DNA of 64,000 nt from Bifidobacterium sp. ESL0728 (lineage in GTDB: Bacteria > Actinomycetota > Actinomycetes > Actinomycetales > Bifidobacteriaceae). Positions 6,633 through 28,529 of the stretch are shown piece after piece. The position numbers and the translations under genes were made by a program. The notes beneath the pieces were generated by a model that was given only the letters and a program-made list of their open reading frames with translations, did no database searches and had not been told where the DNA came from. The stretch is from the NCBI RefSeq assembly GCF_029392015.1, contig NZ_CP113925.1, forward strand, positions 806,001 through 870,000, read 5' to 3'. Within the stretch, counting starts at the first letter, position 1; each line of letters opens with the position of its first letter.

Positions 6633-6682
6633 ACGCGACATTGAACGACGTTGAACGGAACGTAGCGGATTAAGCCGTTGAT

Positions 6683-6732
6683 AATACAGTGAGCGGGCGG
6701 ATGTTTTCTGGCATCCGCCCGCTCACTGTATT
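6683..6732. terminator. Very stable 21-bp hairpin after cydC
   Basis: The arm at 6683-6703 pairs perfectly with 6712-6732 around an 8-base loop. There is no clear T-tract on either side. It lies between cydC (+) and the polyprenyl synthetase gene (-), so it may serve both. The rest of 6633-6889 is AT-rich non-coding sequence in which I see no gene. Confidence 0.65.
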
Positions 6733-6889
6733 AGGGTTGATGAAATTTGCGGTTCTAAATCTGAAGTTTATTGCTTGGAATTTACACTTTGAAATTTGCG
6801 GTTTGAACGTCAACTATTCATCGTCTGCCGGATACCTGTTCGGCTGCTTGGTGATCTAACCGTTCCGAGGGAATCGGAAAACCGCAGCT

Positions 6890-19442: not shown

Positions 19443-19534
19443 GGTAACACTTCGAATATTTGGTCCGTAACACATCAAATATCTGACTGGTAATGTCTGA
19501 ATCTTCAGATTGGCAATGCTCCAAACGCAAGGAC
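19443..19534. repeat. Four degenerate 23-bp direct repeats
   Basis: Units begin at 19443, 19466, 19489 and 19512, each opening with GGTAACAC, CGTAACAC, GGTAATGT or GGCAATGC and followed by a TCNAAT-like block. The 23-bp period (about two helical turns) is constant. The last unit runs into a small frameshifted reading frame. They could be stacked binding sites or decayed simple repeats. Confidence 0.45.
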
Positions 19535-19799
19535 ACAGCGAAGTGCTCACACGAACGTTTGAAAAGAACGGTGAACCCTACGACCTGTTGGTTTCTGAAC
19601 CGCAACAGGGGACTCCGGGGAATTCTGGACGAAAGTCACACTGGAGCGCGACAGTGGCATCGTGTGGTCCCATCAGATCGGGGGTATCGACGGAGTTCAA
19701 TCGACGCTGCTGGCTTTGGGGCTTGCGCGTAGGTTGCTCGAAGCCGCTGGCGGTTTCACATTCCTTGACAGCCCTGACCTGATGCTTTCCTGCGACTAA
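19516..19799 (+). pseudogene. Small frameshifted hypothetical protein gene
   Basis: The ATG at 19516 opens MLQTQGHSEVLTRTFEKNG and continues to ...EPQQGTPG. After the GGGG at 19617-19620 the sensible frame shifts by -1 and reads EFWTKVTLERDSGIVW... to a TAA at 19797-19799. Joined, this makes about 94 residues with a plausible alpha/beta pattern and normal bifidobacterial codon use on both sides of the shift. Left in frame, the first part runs into unlikely sequence. The cause is either a one-base deletion in the G run, a sequencing error or ribosomal slippage. I do not recognise the family. The remaining 19800-20014 holds the repeat at 19810 and the promoter region of the next gene. Confidence 0.5.
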
Positions 19800-19809
19800 C
19801 CGGTCAATT

Positions 19810-19857
19810 CCGCTAGTTTTCGTATACTTTTGGGGCCAAAAATGTACGTTTTCTCGC
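19810..19857. repeat. Intergenic imperfect palindrome, sister of the element at 22157-22206
   Basis: The stretch begins CCGCTAGTTTTCGTAT, has a GGGGCC centre and ends GTACGTTTTCTCGC. The reverse complement of 22157-22206 starts CCGCTAGTTTTCGTATG and ends ACGTACGTTTTCTAGCGG. The two share both ends and the overall length, with the centre diverged. Confidence 0.6.
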
Positions 19858-20014
19858 AGAACTTACTGATGAACACATGGATCTGAGTCATTCCGGTTGG
19901 TTGGAACAATAAACAAATAATGGACAGGTTCAGATATTGGCGAAATTCGGGCGAAAAGTTGGGCGGCGCGGATAGACTCACATAAGCGTTAATTCGACAG
20001 AATCGAGGAGTGAC

Positions 20015-20941
20015 ATGGCGGAAGTCAAGGCAAGCGACGCAGCGCAGCAAGCGGTTGAGGCGCTCAAGCTGAAAGCCGGGCAAGAGCAAGGCGGACGGAC
20101 CGTCTTCCATGACGCCACGAACCTCTACTACCCCACCGAACGCATCTACGGTGGCCAGATGACCGCGCAGGCCATCATCGCTGCGACCGACACCGCCGAC
20201 GATGACAAGGTCGCCAACTCCATCCATGCCACGTTCATCAAGGTCGGCAAGCTAGACGAGGAGACCCGCTACGAGGTCGAATCGCTGCGTGACGGCCGCT
20301 CCTTCTCCACACGCCGCGTGGACGCCAAGCAGGACAACCAGCTGCTCTTCACCGCCACGGTGAGCCTGCAGAAGGCCGGACAGTCCGGCGTGGAGTTCAA
20401 CGACGACATGCCACGTAACCTTCCCGACCCAGAAACATTGACCAGTGCGAAGGACCTGATGGAGCCTTACGCTGAAAAGTCCGGGTTCGCCAAATACTAT
20501 TCCTCCCAGTCGCCGTTCGACATCCGTCATATCGGCTCGACCGTCATGCTCGAACCCGACAAGGAAAGTGCCGACAAGGATTCAGGTAAACAGATGGTCT
20601 GGATGCGCATGGCCAGCCCGGTCAAGGCGTCGCAAAACGTCTACCGTGCGCTGCTGGCGCTCGAGTGCGACCAGGTGATGATGGAGCCGGATTTGCGTCG
20701 CGCTGGCCTGAGCATTTCGACGCCCGGCATCTTTTATGCCTCGATCGACCACTCGATGTGGTGGTATGACAATATCGATATGAACGAATGGCATCTTTAC
20801 GTACAAGACGCTCCGGTCGCTGGCCATGGCCGCGCGTTGGGCATCGCCAAGGTCTATTCGGCCGACGGCAGGCTTCTGGCCGCGATGACGCAGGAAGCCA
20901 CCATCCGCGTGCCGGAAAAGAAGGACGATAAGGAAAAGTAA
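20015..20941 (+). CDS. tesB: Acyl-CoA thioesterase II
   Basis: Double hot-dog thioesterase that hydrolyses acyl-CoA to free acid and CoA. The 308-residue protein has the TesB hallmarks: RIYGGQMTAQAI in the first hot-dog, SLRDGRSFSTRRVDAKQ, then in the second hot-dog SIDHSMWWYDN with the conserved Asp, WHLYVQDAPVAGHGRALGIAKVY, and the catalytic Gln in MTQEATIR. The ATG is preceded by GAGGAGTGAC. It stands alone, between a long gap and a convergent gene. Confidence 0.93.
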   Translation: MAEVKASDAAQQAVEALKLKAGQEQGGRTVFHDATNLYYPTERIYGGQMTAQAIIAATDTADDDKVANSIHATFIKVGKLDEETRYEVESLRDGRSFSTRRVDAKQDNQLLFTATVSLQKAGQSGVEFNDDMPRNLPDPETLTSAKDLMEPYAEKSGFAKYYSSQSPFDIRHIGSTVMLEPDKESADKDSGKQMVWMRMASPVKASQNVYRALLALECDQVMMEPDLRRAGLSISTPGIFYASIDHSMWWYDNIDMNEWHLYVQDAPVAGHGRALGIAKVYSADGRLLAAMTQEATIRVPEKKDDKEK

Positions 20942-20989
20942 ATCTCGTCGGTTGTTAAAATCAGGATCTGGACACAATGAACAACATGT

Positions 20990-21949
20990 TCACCTGATTC
21001 TGGGAACTCCTGCGCAGACAAGGCGATGAGATAATAGATTCGGTCTGTTCACTTCCTGTGAGGAGATTCGAACGATTTCGGTGACCCCGGCACGCTTTAA
21101 TGCCGATTCCCTACGACGTTCTTCGTTGACCACCTGCCATGTGTCTTTTCCATGTGTCATCTCGGGATTGATATATTTTTGCAGACCGTCGTATTCCAGG
21201 GCAATAACCTTGCCGCCAGCCGTGTGCCAAAGAAAATCAGCGCGATAGTGAGAACCGTCTTGGGGGTCGGTAAAGTCATGTTGCAGCTCCGGAGTTGCGA
21301 ATCCCGCCTCGATGATAAGTGCCCGGCACAAGGATTCCCCGCCATTCTCACTTGCACCGTTGGCATAATGTAATAATTTCGATACCGCCAGAGTGTTCTT
21401 ATGCATTGTTGAACAGATTTTTTCGATTGCCGAAGTCTCAAGAAGCTGTTGTCTTGCAGCCGAATCGAATAACGCCAATGCTTGGGAAAACGGGAAAAGC
21501 AAGGCACAATCCACCAAAGTTCGTGAAGGGTCGGTAACCGATACGTTTTCTACTTTCCAGCGATGAACATTTGCAATGTATAGACGATGCAGGTGCCGGT
21601 CTGAAACTGCCGATTTCGAATCCTTGGTGGCGATGAAGACTGATTTGTCATGATGCATCGACCATCCGTGTTCAAGCCTCAGCATCACGGCCGAGCTTGG
21701 TCCGGCGAAGTCCCAATGGGGATGTTTCCTCGCCAAGGTGCGGATCAGATGCCGGTTTTGCTCAATCGGGTCCAAGGTGGAGACGTACTCCACACGTGCA
21801 TAGATGTTCTTATAGGGGCTGACCAGTAAGCCAGATTCTCGTTTGCGGGCCAATGCGCGTCGTTGCCCGTCATCCCTGCCATAGCAATATCTGCCTTTTG
21901 CTTCGGCTTGTGCCAGCATGCGGTTGATTTCCACCAGTTTTTGTCCCAT
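20990..21949 (-). CDS. AbiEi-like wHTH protein with C-terminal DUF559/Vsr-like nuclease fold
   Basis: 319 residues. The N-terminal half resembles AbiEi-type transcriptional regulators/antitoxins of actinobacteria (RRALARKRESGLLVSPYKNIYARVEYV, later SVTDPSRTLVDCALLFPFSQALALFDSA). The C-terminal third, about residues 205-310, has a PD-(D/E)XK layout: ESLCRALIIEAGF, then RADFLW...KVIALEYDGLQKY (D...E-x-D), then VNEERRRESALKRAGVTEIVRI, as in DUF559 proteins. Such orphans are common in bifidobacteria and have no proven role. No AbiEii partner lies beside it. The start is the ATG at 21949, without a strong ribosome site. Confidence 0.7.
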   Translation of the reverse strand: MGQKLVEINRMLAQAEAKGRYCYGRDDGQRRALARKRESGLLVSPYKNIYARVEYVSTLDPIEQNRHLIRTLARKHPHWDFAGPSSAVMLRLEHGWSMHHDKSVFIATKDSKSAVSDRHLHRLYIANVHRWKVENVSVTDPSRTLVDCALLFPFSQALALFDSAARQQLLETSAIEKICSTMHKNTLAVSKLLHYANGASENGGESLCRALIIEAGFATPELQHDFTDPQDGSHYRADFLWHTAGGKVIALEYDGLQKYINPEMTHGKDTWQVVNEERRRESALKRAGVTEIVRISSQEVNRPNLLSHRLVCAGVPRIR

Positions 21950-21992
21950 AACACCAAATTAGCGTAAAACATTGGTATACAAGGGAAAAATA

Positions 21993-22064
21993 GGGTGCTG
22001 TGGTCGAATGATCGGCATCTCGGCGTGTCTGTGGATAACTTTCAGCAATCCACATCAATCCACA
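21993..22064. other. Intergenic element: conserved 22-mer plus DnaA-box cluster
   Basis: A 22-base stretch at 21993-22014 (core CTGTGGTCG) recurs at 32478-32499 with three mismatches. It is followed by a consensus DnaA box, TGTGGATAA (22030-22038), and two AATCCACA near-boxes (22047-22054 and 22057-22064) ten bases apart. The gap has no reading frame of note. Nothing marks it as an origin. Confidence 0.5.
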
Positions 22065-22138
22065 ATACCCGATGATGGCTGTCTGACCCTTCAGACGGTT
22101 GTCAATTGTCCGTGGCACTTCTTCTCGGTCCCCATCCC

Positions 22139-22224
22139 GCTAGTAACAAGACAATCCCGCTAGAAAACGTACGTTTTGAGTATCAAAAACATACGAAAAC
22201 TAGCGGGATTGTCTTGTTACTAGC
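22139..22224. repeat. 25-bp perfect inverted repeat with a palindromic loop, after ettA
   Basis: The arm 22139-22163 is the exact reverse complement of 22200-22224. The 36-base loop contains the perfect palindrome AAAACGTACGTTTT at 22164-22177 and the motif TTTGAGTATCAAAAA, which also occurs at 32521-32535. ATCCCGCTAG also occurs just outside the left arm, as a short direct repeat. The right arm ends 13 bases from the ettA stop, so it may act as the ettA terminator, but no T-tract follows. A MITE-like origin is possible. Confidence 0.7.
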
Positions 22225-22236
22225 AGAAGATGCTGT

Positions 22237-23913
<1,677 letters not shown>

Positions 23914-28072: not shown

Positions 28073-28529
28073 ATGGATTCCCATGGCATCTTTTGCTTTG
28101 CCGTCAGAAAAGTGCATTTTGTATCACGTAAAGTGCACTTTTGTGACGTTAACGTCGAAAAGGTGCAGGTTATGGGTCGTAAAGTGCACTTTTTCAATGT
28201 TGCCGTCGAGAAAGTGCAAATTGTGGAGGGCAAGGTGCACTTTCCGTACGGTGGTGTCAAGAAGATACAATCGGGCGGTTGAGGTGCACTTTTTACACGG
28301 TGGCGTCACGAAAGTGCAGGTTATGGGTCGTAAAGTCCACTTTTTCTACGGTAGCGTCGGGAAAATGCGTGTTATCGCTGACAAGGTGCACTTTTCCATC
28401 AGTGGCGTTAGAAAAGTGCGGACTATGGAGGGCAAGGTGCACTTTTTGCACGCTGATGTCGGCAATGTGCAAGCTCCGTCGTGTAAAGTGCGCTTTTCCG
28501 GCGTAAAGGCCATGATTATGCTCCTATAA
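28073..28529 (+). pseudogene. 17-residue repeat protein gene with a 2-bp frameshift
   Basis: Reading from the ATG at 28073 gives MDSHGIFCFAVRKVHFVSR and then 17-residue units with consensus KVHFxxGGVxKVQVMGR. The third full unit (28232-28280) is 49 instead of 51 bases long, so the frame closes at 28282. Beyond it, frame +2 restores the same pattern (EVHFLHGGVTKVQVMGR and so on) to a TAA at 28527-28529. Undoing the deletion gives about 153 residues of alternating strands. No convincing ribosome site is present, so it may never have been translated, or may be a decayed remnant. I do not recognise a family. Confidence 0.4.
28079..28512. repeat. 51-bp tandem repeat array, about eight and a half units
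   Basis: Unit starts (core AARGTGCAC) are at 28130, 28181, 28232, 28281, 28332, 28383, 28434 and 28485. A leading degenerate unit lies at about 28079-28129. All spacings are 51 except one of 49. Each unit carries AAAGTGCACTTT, a perfect 12-bp palindrome in the best copies, and a second AAAGTGCA about 30 bases later, so AAGTGCA recurs at alternating 30/21 spacing. Flanking 27978-28078 and 28513-28537 show nothing else. Confidence 0.85.

Follow-up and report, generated by a model that had tools for sequence, protein, structure and literature searches.

Within the window, the whole stretch of 64,000 nucleotides analysed here, two copies of a palindromic element, E1 and E2, bracket a tesB-like gene together with a gene for an AbiEi-like protein, E2 lying next to the end of an ettA-like ABC-F gene (Table 1). 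The names ettA, tesB, rplM, gatC, recO, gpm and phoU are our assumptions, assigned from sequence or taken over from an earlier note on this DNA, which had drawn attention to E2. That note missed the AbiEi-like gene between the copies, which is more informative than the hairpin itself.

Table 1. Features of the ettA-tesB interval and of a second repeat family in the window
Feature	Position	Strand	Evidence
E1, diverged second copy, orientation opposite to E2	19791-19877	+	R1 match 64.3 bits
tesB-like gene	20015-20941	+	ORF; codirectional after ettA in relatives, inverted here
AbiEi-like gene, 319 aa, between E1 and E2	20990-21949	-	ORF; PADLOC AbiEi 6.3e-4
E2, 88 nt	22138-22225	-	R1 match 106.2 bits; exact 25-bp arms; fold
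E2 outer arms, 26 nt each	22138-22163 / 22200-22225		25 bp perfect
E2 internal 4x4 block	22164-22167 / 22196-22199		
E2 inner stem, 10 bp	22168-22177 / 22186-22195		
E2 loop, 8 nt	22178-22185		
ettA-like ABC-F gene	22237-23913	-	ORF; homolog in 112/112 genomes; stop 11 bp from E2
Array of AAAGTGCA-type inverted repeats, second family	28107-28471	.	blastn best E 1.0e-9; 3' of DEAD-box helicase-like gene

The 25-bp inverted arms described earlier (22139-22163 and 22200-22224) are indeed exact reverse complements around a 36-nt centre and are about twice as long as the longest arm found in 40 simulated 64-kb sequences (10-12 bp at most; order-2 Markov, centre up to 60 nt). Folding of the minus-strand RNA of 22130-22230 gave -63.5 kcal/mol and a z of -13.3, none of 200 shuffles being equally stable. 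The motif AAAACGTACGTTTT reported for the loop of E2 lies at 22164-22177, and the diverged sister in opposite orientation, previously placed at 19810-19857, is real and longer than that, with the 88-nt model covering all of E1; E1 and E2 are 78% complementary over 68 nt. The earlier statement that E2 is without a T-tract is correct for its outer stem but not for the minus-strand inner hairpin, which is followed by TTTT. A consensus terminator scan called this TTTT-tailed inner hairpin terminator-like, a weak call, and made two terminator-like calls in 19500-22600 against 3.3 expected by chance. Rfam gave no match within the window at gathering score.

The palindrome family in Bifidobacterium

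In the genome studied here (G000, with a 2.59-Mb chromosome) the family comprises 12 sites by BLAST, and a covariance model built from 30 copies (R1) recovered the same 12 on both strands (24 matches). With E <= 0.01 as the cut-off, R1 had matches in 34 of 112 Bifidobacterium genomes. A second model (R2), in a scan that scored up to 23 candidates per genome and whose per-genome counts are lower bounds, gave matches at the stricter cut-off of E <= 1e-4 in 27 of the 189 Bifidobacteriaceae genomes, and six of these 27 belong to another genus. The second-genus matches that were inspected differ in stem sequence and are similar in plan, with a long outer stem, an inner stem ending in CGTTTT and an 8-nt loop, some of them carrying an internal mismatch of about 4 bases. 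Of 30 core-containing places listed, pairing extends to 29-35 of 40 positions in seven and to 11-19 in the other 23. A further perfect 22-bp inverted repeat with an 8-nt loop, at 6682-6733, is absent from the R1 matches of the window.

In G000 the full outer arm comprises two boxes and the spacer that separates them (GCTAG TAACAAGACAATCCC GCTAG), with a variant in which CCGGTC replaces CAAGAC. Extra tandem 20-nt units occur at three G000 sites, and a search of G000 for the 20-nt unit gave 25 matches, all inside known elements or tandem extensions of them and none isolated. The boxes are lineage-specific (GCTAG, GCTGG, GGCAG or GCCCC), each lineage having its own arm consensus. The hairpin is thus almost certainly one member of a dispersed family of palindromes, and the earlier suggestion of a REP-like element is borne out, the family being structured, dispersed and extragenic. 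The contrary case considered at the time, a single copy serving only as the ettA terminator, is excluded because E2 belongs to such a family, with 12 sites in G000.

The genomic setting was examined at 85 sites drawn from the 150 R1 matches listed, leaving out sites in G112, G142 and G108 and two in G139; genes were called with a custom script. Eighty-three of these sites are intergenic, and the neighbouring genes are codirectional at 57, convergent at 13 and divergent at 13. Ordinary terminators or mRNA-stabilising hairpins would be in keeping with the position of E2 just past ettA, where some relatives carry a short terminator-like hairpin, and with a mild excess of G-U over A-C on the sense strand (122 vs 92 at 45 codirectional sites). 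However, the strand of the element is random with respect to codirectional genes (27 same, 30 opposite), 13 of the 85 sites are located between divergent genes, and between gpm and phoU the element occurs besides a terminator-like hairpin, which G048, G055 and G058 carry without the element; we consider this explanation scarcely credible.

A neighbouring gene family common to a site in another genome was found at 71 of the 85 sites, counted with neighbour-family groups that may merge paralogous neighbours. Related copies are old, their positions being mostly common to several species. At a locus at 754 kb the flanking genes are about 10 bp apart in G048, G055 and G058 vs 214 bp including the element in G000, and at a locus at 326 kb an apparent decayed form of the element is kept in G048. 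When G000 C1:754169 is set against the empty sites L259, L267 and L270 (G048, G058 and G055), the short repeats AAGTGA / AAGTAAGGA end the extra G000 DNA, which would fit either a duplication made on insertion or a deletion by microhomology.

In the three complete genomes analysed, the sites listed for each lie within 0.32 (G000), 0.37 (G025) and 0.20 (G138) genome length of dnaA (P 0.005, 0.009 and 0.004 against a uniform distribution), and three further G138 sites, listed later, lie at 0.07-0.22. The listed elements of these chromosomes avoid the terminus-proximal part, to which core-gene bias may contribute. Origin-proximal sites could suggest chromosome-organising sequences that avoid the terminus and are read by some other protein; against this, copy number is low, most genomes are without elements, elements are absent at two loci in close relatives and conserved genes may simply be nearer the origin, which makes such a role very improbable.

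Conservation within the element

Orthologous copies (12 pairs) are identical at 490 of 624 outer-arm positions (79%), 94 of 96 positions of the internal block (98%) and 186 of 240 inner-stem positions (78%), and at 43 of 96 loop positions (45%), the loop being close to the flanks of orthologous copies (488/960, 51%; 16 pairs). Copies within one genome have arm similarities of 0.65-0.75 and loops near chance (0.27-0.37). Close orthologs retain a signal, the arms of G000 and G002 scoring 0.83, whereas the arms of distant orthologs are less alike than those of paralogs within a genome (0.63 for G000-G050 vs 0.71 and 0.74).

As the loops of copies in a genome are near chance similarity, no recent copying is apparent except for local duplicates. 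Whole-element gene conversion was rejected, the arms being genome-specific and yet the loops not common to the copies. Recent transposition or whole-element conversion would homogenise the loops too, and so we read the pattern in the alignments as probable selection on the arms by a lineage-specific binding factor. Left and right arms covaried within a genome in G000 (P 0.007) and in G025 (P 0.0004, with one family-B copy (225859) in the set, which may inflate the covariation), and covariation was not significant in G034 (0.20), G050 B (0.11) and G002 (0.27).

For target-site duplications we used a slightly different set of 85 sites, taken from the best 150 of 171 matches. Three duplications were found at k=2 (2.9 expected), none at k=3, two at k=4 (0.1 expected) and none at k=5-9; none is convincing, the two 4-bp cases being the only candidates. 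Many copies start with TG and end with CA. The other part of the earlier suggestion, a MITE, is not sustained by these data: there are no convincing target-site duplications, BLAST found no full-length element or autonomous relative with the same terminal repeats in G000, no Y1 transposase was matched in G000, and recent copying was seen only as local duplicates. The E-AbiEi-E arrangement could itself be the long form of the element.

AbiEi-like genes and their flanking repeats

Among the 13 closest other genomes inspected, ten have tesB directly after ettA with no AbiEi-like gene between them (G048, G055, G050, G058, G002, G004, G029, G139, G015 and G054), and the gap holds a short terminator-like hairpin or other palindromes; in G025 the stretch compared stopped short of tesB. 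The remaining two of the 13 hold the gene in this interval; the order in G034 is ettA-E-AbiEi-E-tesB, and in G138 it is ettA-palindrome-AbiEi-palindrome-tesB with AbiEi on the other strand. G050 carries E-AbiEi-E at another place, and its two elements have an identical loop on one strand. A different long palindrome (TGACGT...CTCAA) lies 3' of ettA in L203, L205, L206, L207, L208 and L210 (G058, G004, G029, G139, G015 and G025, respectively); judged by eye, its arms differ between species yet remain paired.

We compared the flanks of 49 AbiEi-like loci, 30 fetched with the homolog search and 19 chosen by hand from the listing in genomes already in use. Thirty-nine were positive, and after two positives had been discarded as artefacts of truncated loci, 37 of 47 loci had a repeat of at least 40 bits common to their left and right 900-bp flanks. 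By the same measure none of 106 controls was positive (ettA 0/30, integrase 0/4, Y1 0/12, random placements 0/60), the control loci being mostly flanked by coding DNA, unlike accessory genes with long non-coding flanks. Twenty-five of the 37 flank repeats are palindromic beyond shuffles and 12 are not; eight of the 37 are inverted. The window locus is among the 10 without a flank repeat at this threshold because tesB separates the AbiEi-like gene from E1.

Bracketing at this frequency bears on the possibility that the elements are relics of a miniature transposon now extinct, the AbiEi-like gene being a bystander. Such relics would be dispersed, extragenic and palindromic and could have the TG...CA ends; on the other hand, they would leave the contrast between homologous loci (37 of 47 bracketed) and controls (0 of 106), as well as the constrained arms, unaccounted for, and neither a convincing target duplication nor a same-ended partner was found in the genome. 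We regard this origin as unlikely.

Repeats of different loci match one another only at a protein identity of 55% or more: 55 of the 91 ordered pairs in that range match, compared with 0 of 1,540 other between-genome pairs and 0 of 71 within-genome pairs. Common flanks partly reflect position, since similar proteins often occupy the same locus. Seven of 20 flank repeats recur elsewhere in the same genome and 13 do not, within the roughly 21-164 kb searched per genome. The seven include the AAAGTGCA array of the window, whose match is to the flanks of another AbiEi-like paralog (G000 C1:119197-120132). In L238 (G144) the flank repeat of an AbiEi-like homolog holds GCGTACGTTTTCTAGC, which is almost the sequence running from inner stem to box in the E family. 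In G034, L114 5267-12273 carries DUF285 surface-protein genes in tandem as well as a DUF4143 ATPase (PADLOC PDC-S01), and several genes of L114 are closely trailed by an E element, resembling a gene-element array.

By number of element matches, the five genomes whose homologs are closest stand at ranks 1, 3, 4, 5 (tied) and 7 of 112, at a 54% identity cut chosen post hoc and among species that are not independent; one of the five genes (G008) is frame-broken and split into two reading frames. G025, with 14 sites and a best homolog at E 7.5e-54, and G002, with seven sites, both have no close cognate, which counts against a partnership. As to decay after loss of the cognate, lengths other than 88 nt occur at five of 54 sites with a cognate vs nine of 31 without (Fisher 0.03), and outer-arm pairing did not differ between the two groups (P 0.25). 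Taken together, we are confident that the palindromes are associated with AbiEi-like genes.

Other candidate partners and carriers were considered and rejected or set aside. A RAYT/IS200 partner (PF01797) occurs in seven of 112 genomes, which include neither G000 nor any of the 34 with R1 matches. A recombinase-in-trio was set aside because only two to five separate integrase matches were found in each of seven element-rich genomes, and attC or cassette arrays were set aside because most sites are single and lie between genes common to several species. For phage, plasmid or viral carriage there was no match, the viral scan using one exact pattern.

An AbiEi-like homolog is present in 94 of 112 Bifidobacterium genomes. 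PADLOC AbiEi models matched 15 of 16 aligned homologs, with a best value of 1.6e-8, whereas Pfam found AbiEi_1 in two members and AbiEi_4 in one (weak, E 0.02-0.04) and neither Pfam nor NCBIfam matched the window protein. A search for AbiEi relatives in viral contigs gave 91 pattern matches, none of them confirmed. In the C-terminal half, S200, N202-S206, R209, D238, F239, W241, E252, D254, G255, K258 and Y259 are invariant in the 16 homologs, and E205, D238, E252, D254 and K258 may be the motif residues of a PD-(D/E)XK / EDxHD nuclease, a type with an alpha-beta-beta-beta-alpha-beta core.

An AlphaFold model from two sequences was poor (mean pLDDT 44.6) and one from a single sequence was worse (39.9). 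Over residues 203-295 the low-confidence model has the order helix-strand-strand-strand-helix-helix-strand. Its best structural alignment, over residues 203-316, is with the catalytic domain of the homing endonuclease I-Bth0305I (Z 7.6, where a Z under 8 may mean merely a common arrangement; rmsd 3.3; 92 aligned), followed by a putative endonuclease-like protein and a mitoribosomal chain, most of the next ranks being nucleases. We assume that the I-Bth0305I domain belongs to what are called EDxHD or Vsr-like families. Foldseek with the model gave no match at E <= 0.001, a profile search of solved structures matched none, and four matches to solved structures by sequence (E 0.15-0.56) were taken as chance. 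The invariant residues and the low-confidence model suggest that the C-terminal half may be nuclease-like.

Proposed role of the AbiEi-like protein and comparison with known systems

Proteins of the AbiEi family recognise 23-bp inverted repeats in the promoters of their own genes, and neither of two such proteins bound the repeats of the other (PMC7319586). For REPINs, Y1 transposases have been proposed as the agents of spread (PMC3116915). Whereas the association described above is a matter of observation, binding, cutting and copying of the palindromes by the AbiEi-like protein are what we infer. We favour a reading in which the hairpin, a REP/REPIN-like palindrome, has as its partner the AbiEi-like protein encoded between the copies in the window, and we see the case for this reading as about evenly balanced. 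The AbiEi-type N-terminal part would bind the roughly 25-bp arms as dyad sites, and this binding would both autoregulate the AbiEi-like gene and mark the dispersed copies. The nuclease-like C-terminal domain might then nick or cut palindromes or empty sites, and repair or recombination might occasionally have copied, moved or inverted palindrome-bounded DNA, for example the ettA-tesB interval, copies decaying once the cognate gene is lost. That the AbiEi-like protein binds the palindromes is probable, with some reservation, whereas a nuclease-driven spread of the palindromes is a tentative suggestion.

The protein could instead be a DNA-binding regulator only, in the manner of a type IV antitoxin, with adjacent palindromes as operators and dispersed ones as regulatory or decoy sites that were never mobile. 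Constrained arms with free loops fit this, as do the 23-bp inverted repeats that AbiEi proteins bind upstream of their own genes (PMC7319586), and the fixed distance of the element from some genes, five of nine sites in the gatC-like group lying 95-99 bp before the start. Autoregulation, however, needs no repeat on both sides of a gene, the bracketed gene stands in both orientations in the ettA-tesB interval and also elsewhere in G050, and the orientation counts of the 85 sites betray no evident promoter bias. A purely regulatory role is conceivable and, in our judgement, rather doubtful.

Compared with REPIN-RAYT systems (PMC3116915, PMC8049555), the favoured reading of a palindrome with an AbiEi-like partner shares dispersed extragenic inverted-repeat doublets that form hairpins, several flavours per genome that each adjoin their own partner gene, here AbiEi-like genes and not RAYTs, and a long persistence during which partner and repeat diversify together. 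It differs in the partner, which is AbiEi-like with a nuclease-like C-terminus and not a Y1/HUH transposase, and in the element, a nested hairpin of 88 nt whose 20-nt units are sometimes in tandem. With AbiEi and the type IV antitoxin Rv2827c the protein shares its AbiEi-type similarity (PADLOC) and an expected preference for inverted repeats near its own gene. In contrast to these systems, in which a toxin gene (DUF1814) is adjacent, no second ORF of at least 90 aa was seen between the G034 elements, and the window interval holds only the tesB-like gene besides; moreover, the protein has a predicted extra nuclease-like domain, and its repeats flank the gene left and right and are also scattered through the chromosome. 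MITEs are likewise short, non-coding, palindromic and dispersed; what sets the present elements apart from them are the target-duplication and same-ended-partner results given above.

Among the papers listed by searches on bifidobacterial repeats or palindromes, recombinase-in-trio, AbiEi and DUF559, no title or abstract opening describes the elements or the bracketing, and the term bifidobact is absent from a paper on tagged palindromes (PMC3733652). The palindrome itself is of a known kind, whereas, as far as our searches reach, the partnership with an AbiEi-like protein is undescribed. We tentatively put forward an undescribed class of elements, in which a DNA-binding protein of AbiEi-like type, joined to a homing-endonuclease-like domain, might propagate and maintain private palindromes, with several independent pairs per genome, as an analogue of REPIN-RAYT built from a different enzyme and spread by cutting and repair instead of Y1 transposition.

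What maintains the dispersed palindromes of bacteria is an open question, RAYTs being the best known enzymatic partner. If the proposal is true, a second, unrelated partner would open this question to comparative testing, and the large AbiEi-like family of Bifidobacterium would gain a role, with the prediction that every protein recognises its own palindrome and leaves that of its paralog unbound. Should the nuclease prove active, it could in addition give rise to rearrangements of bifidobacterial genomes.
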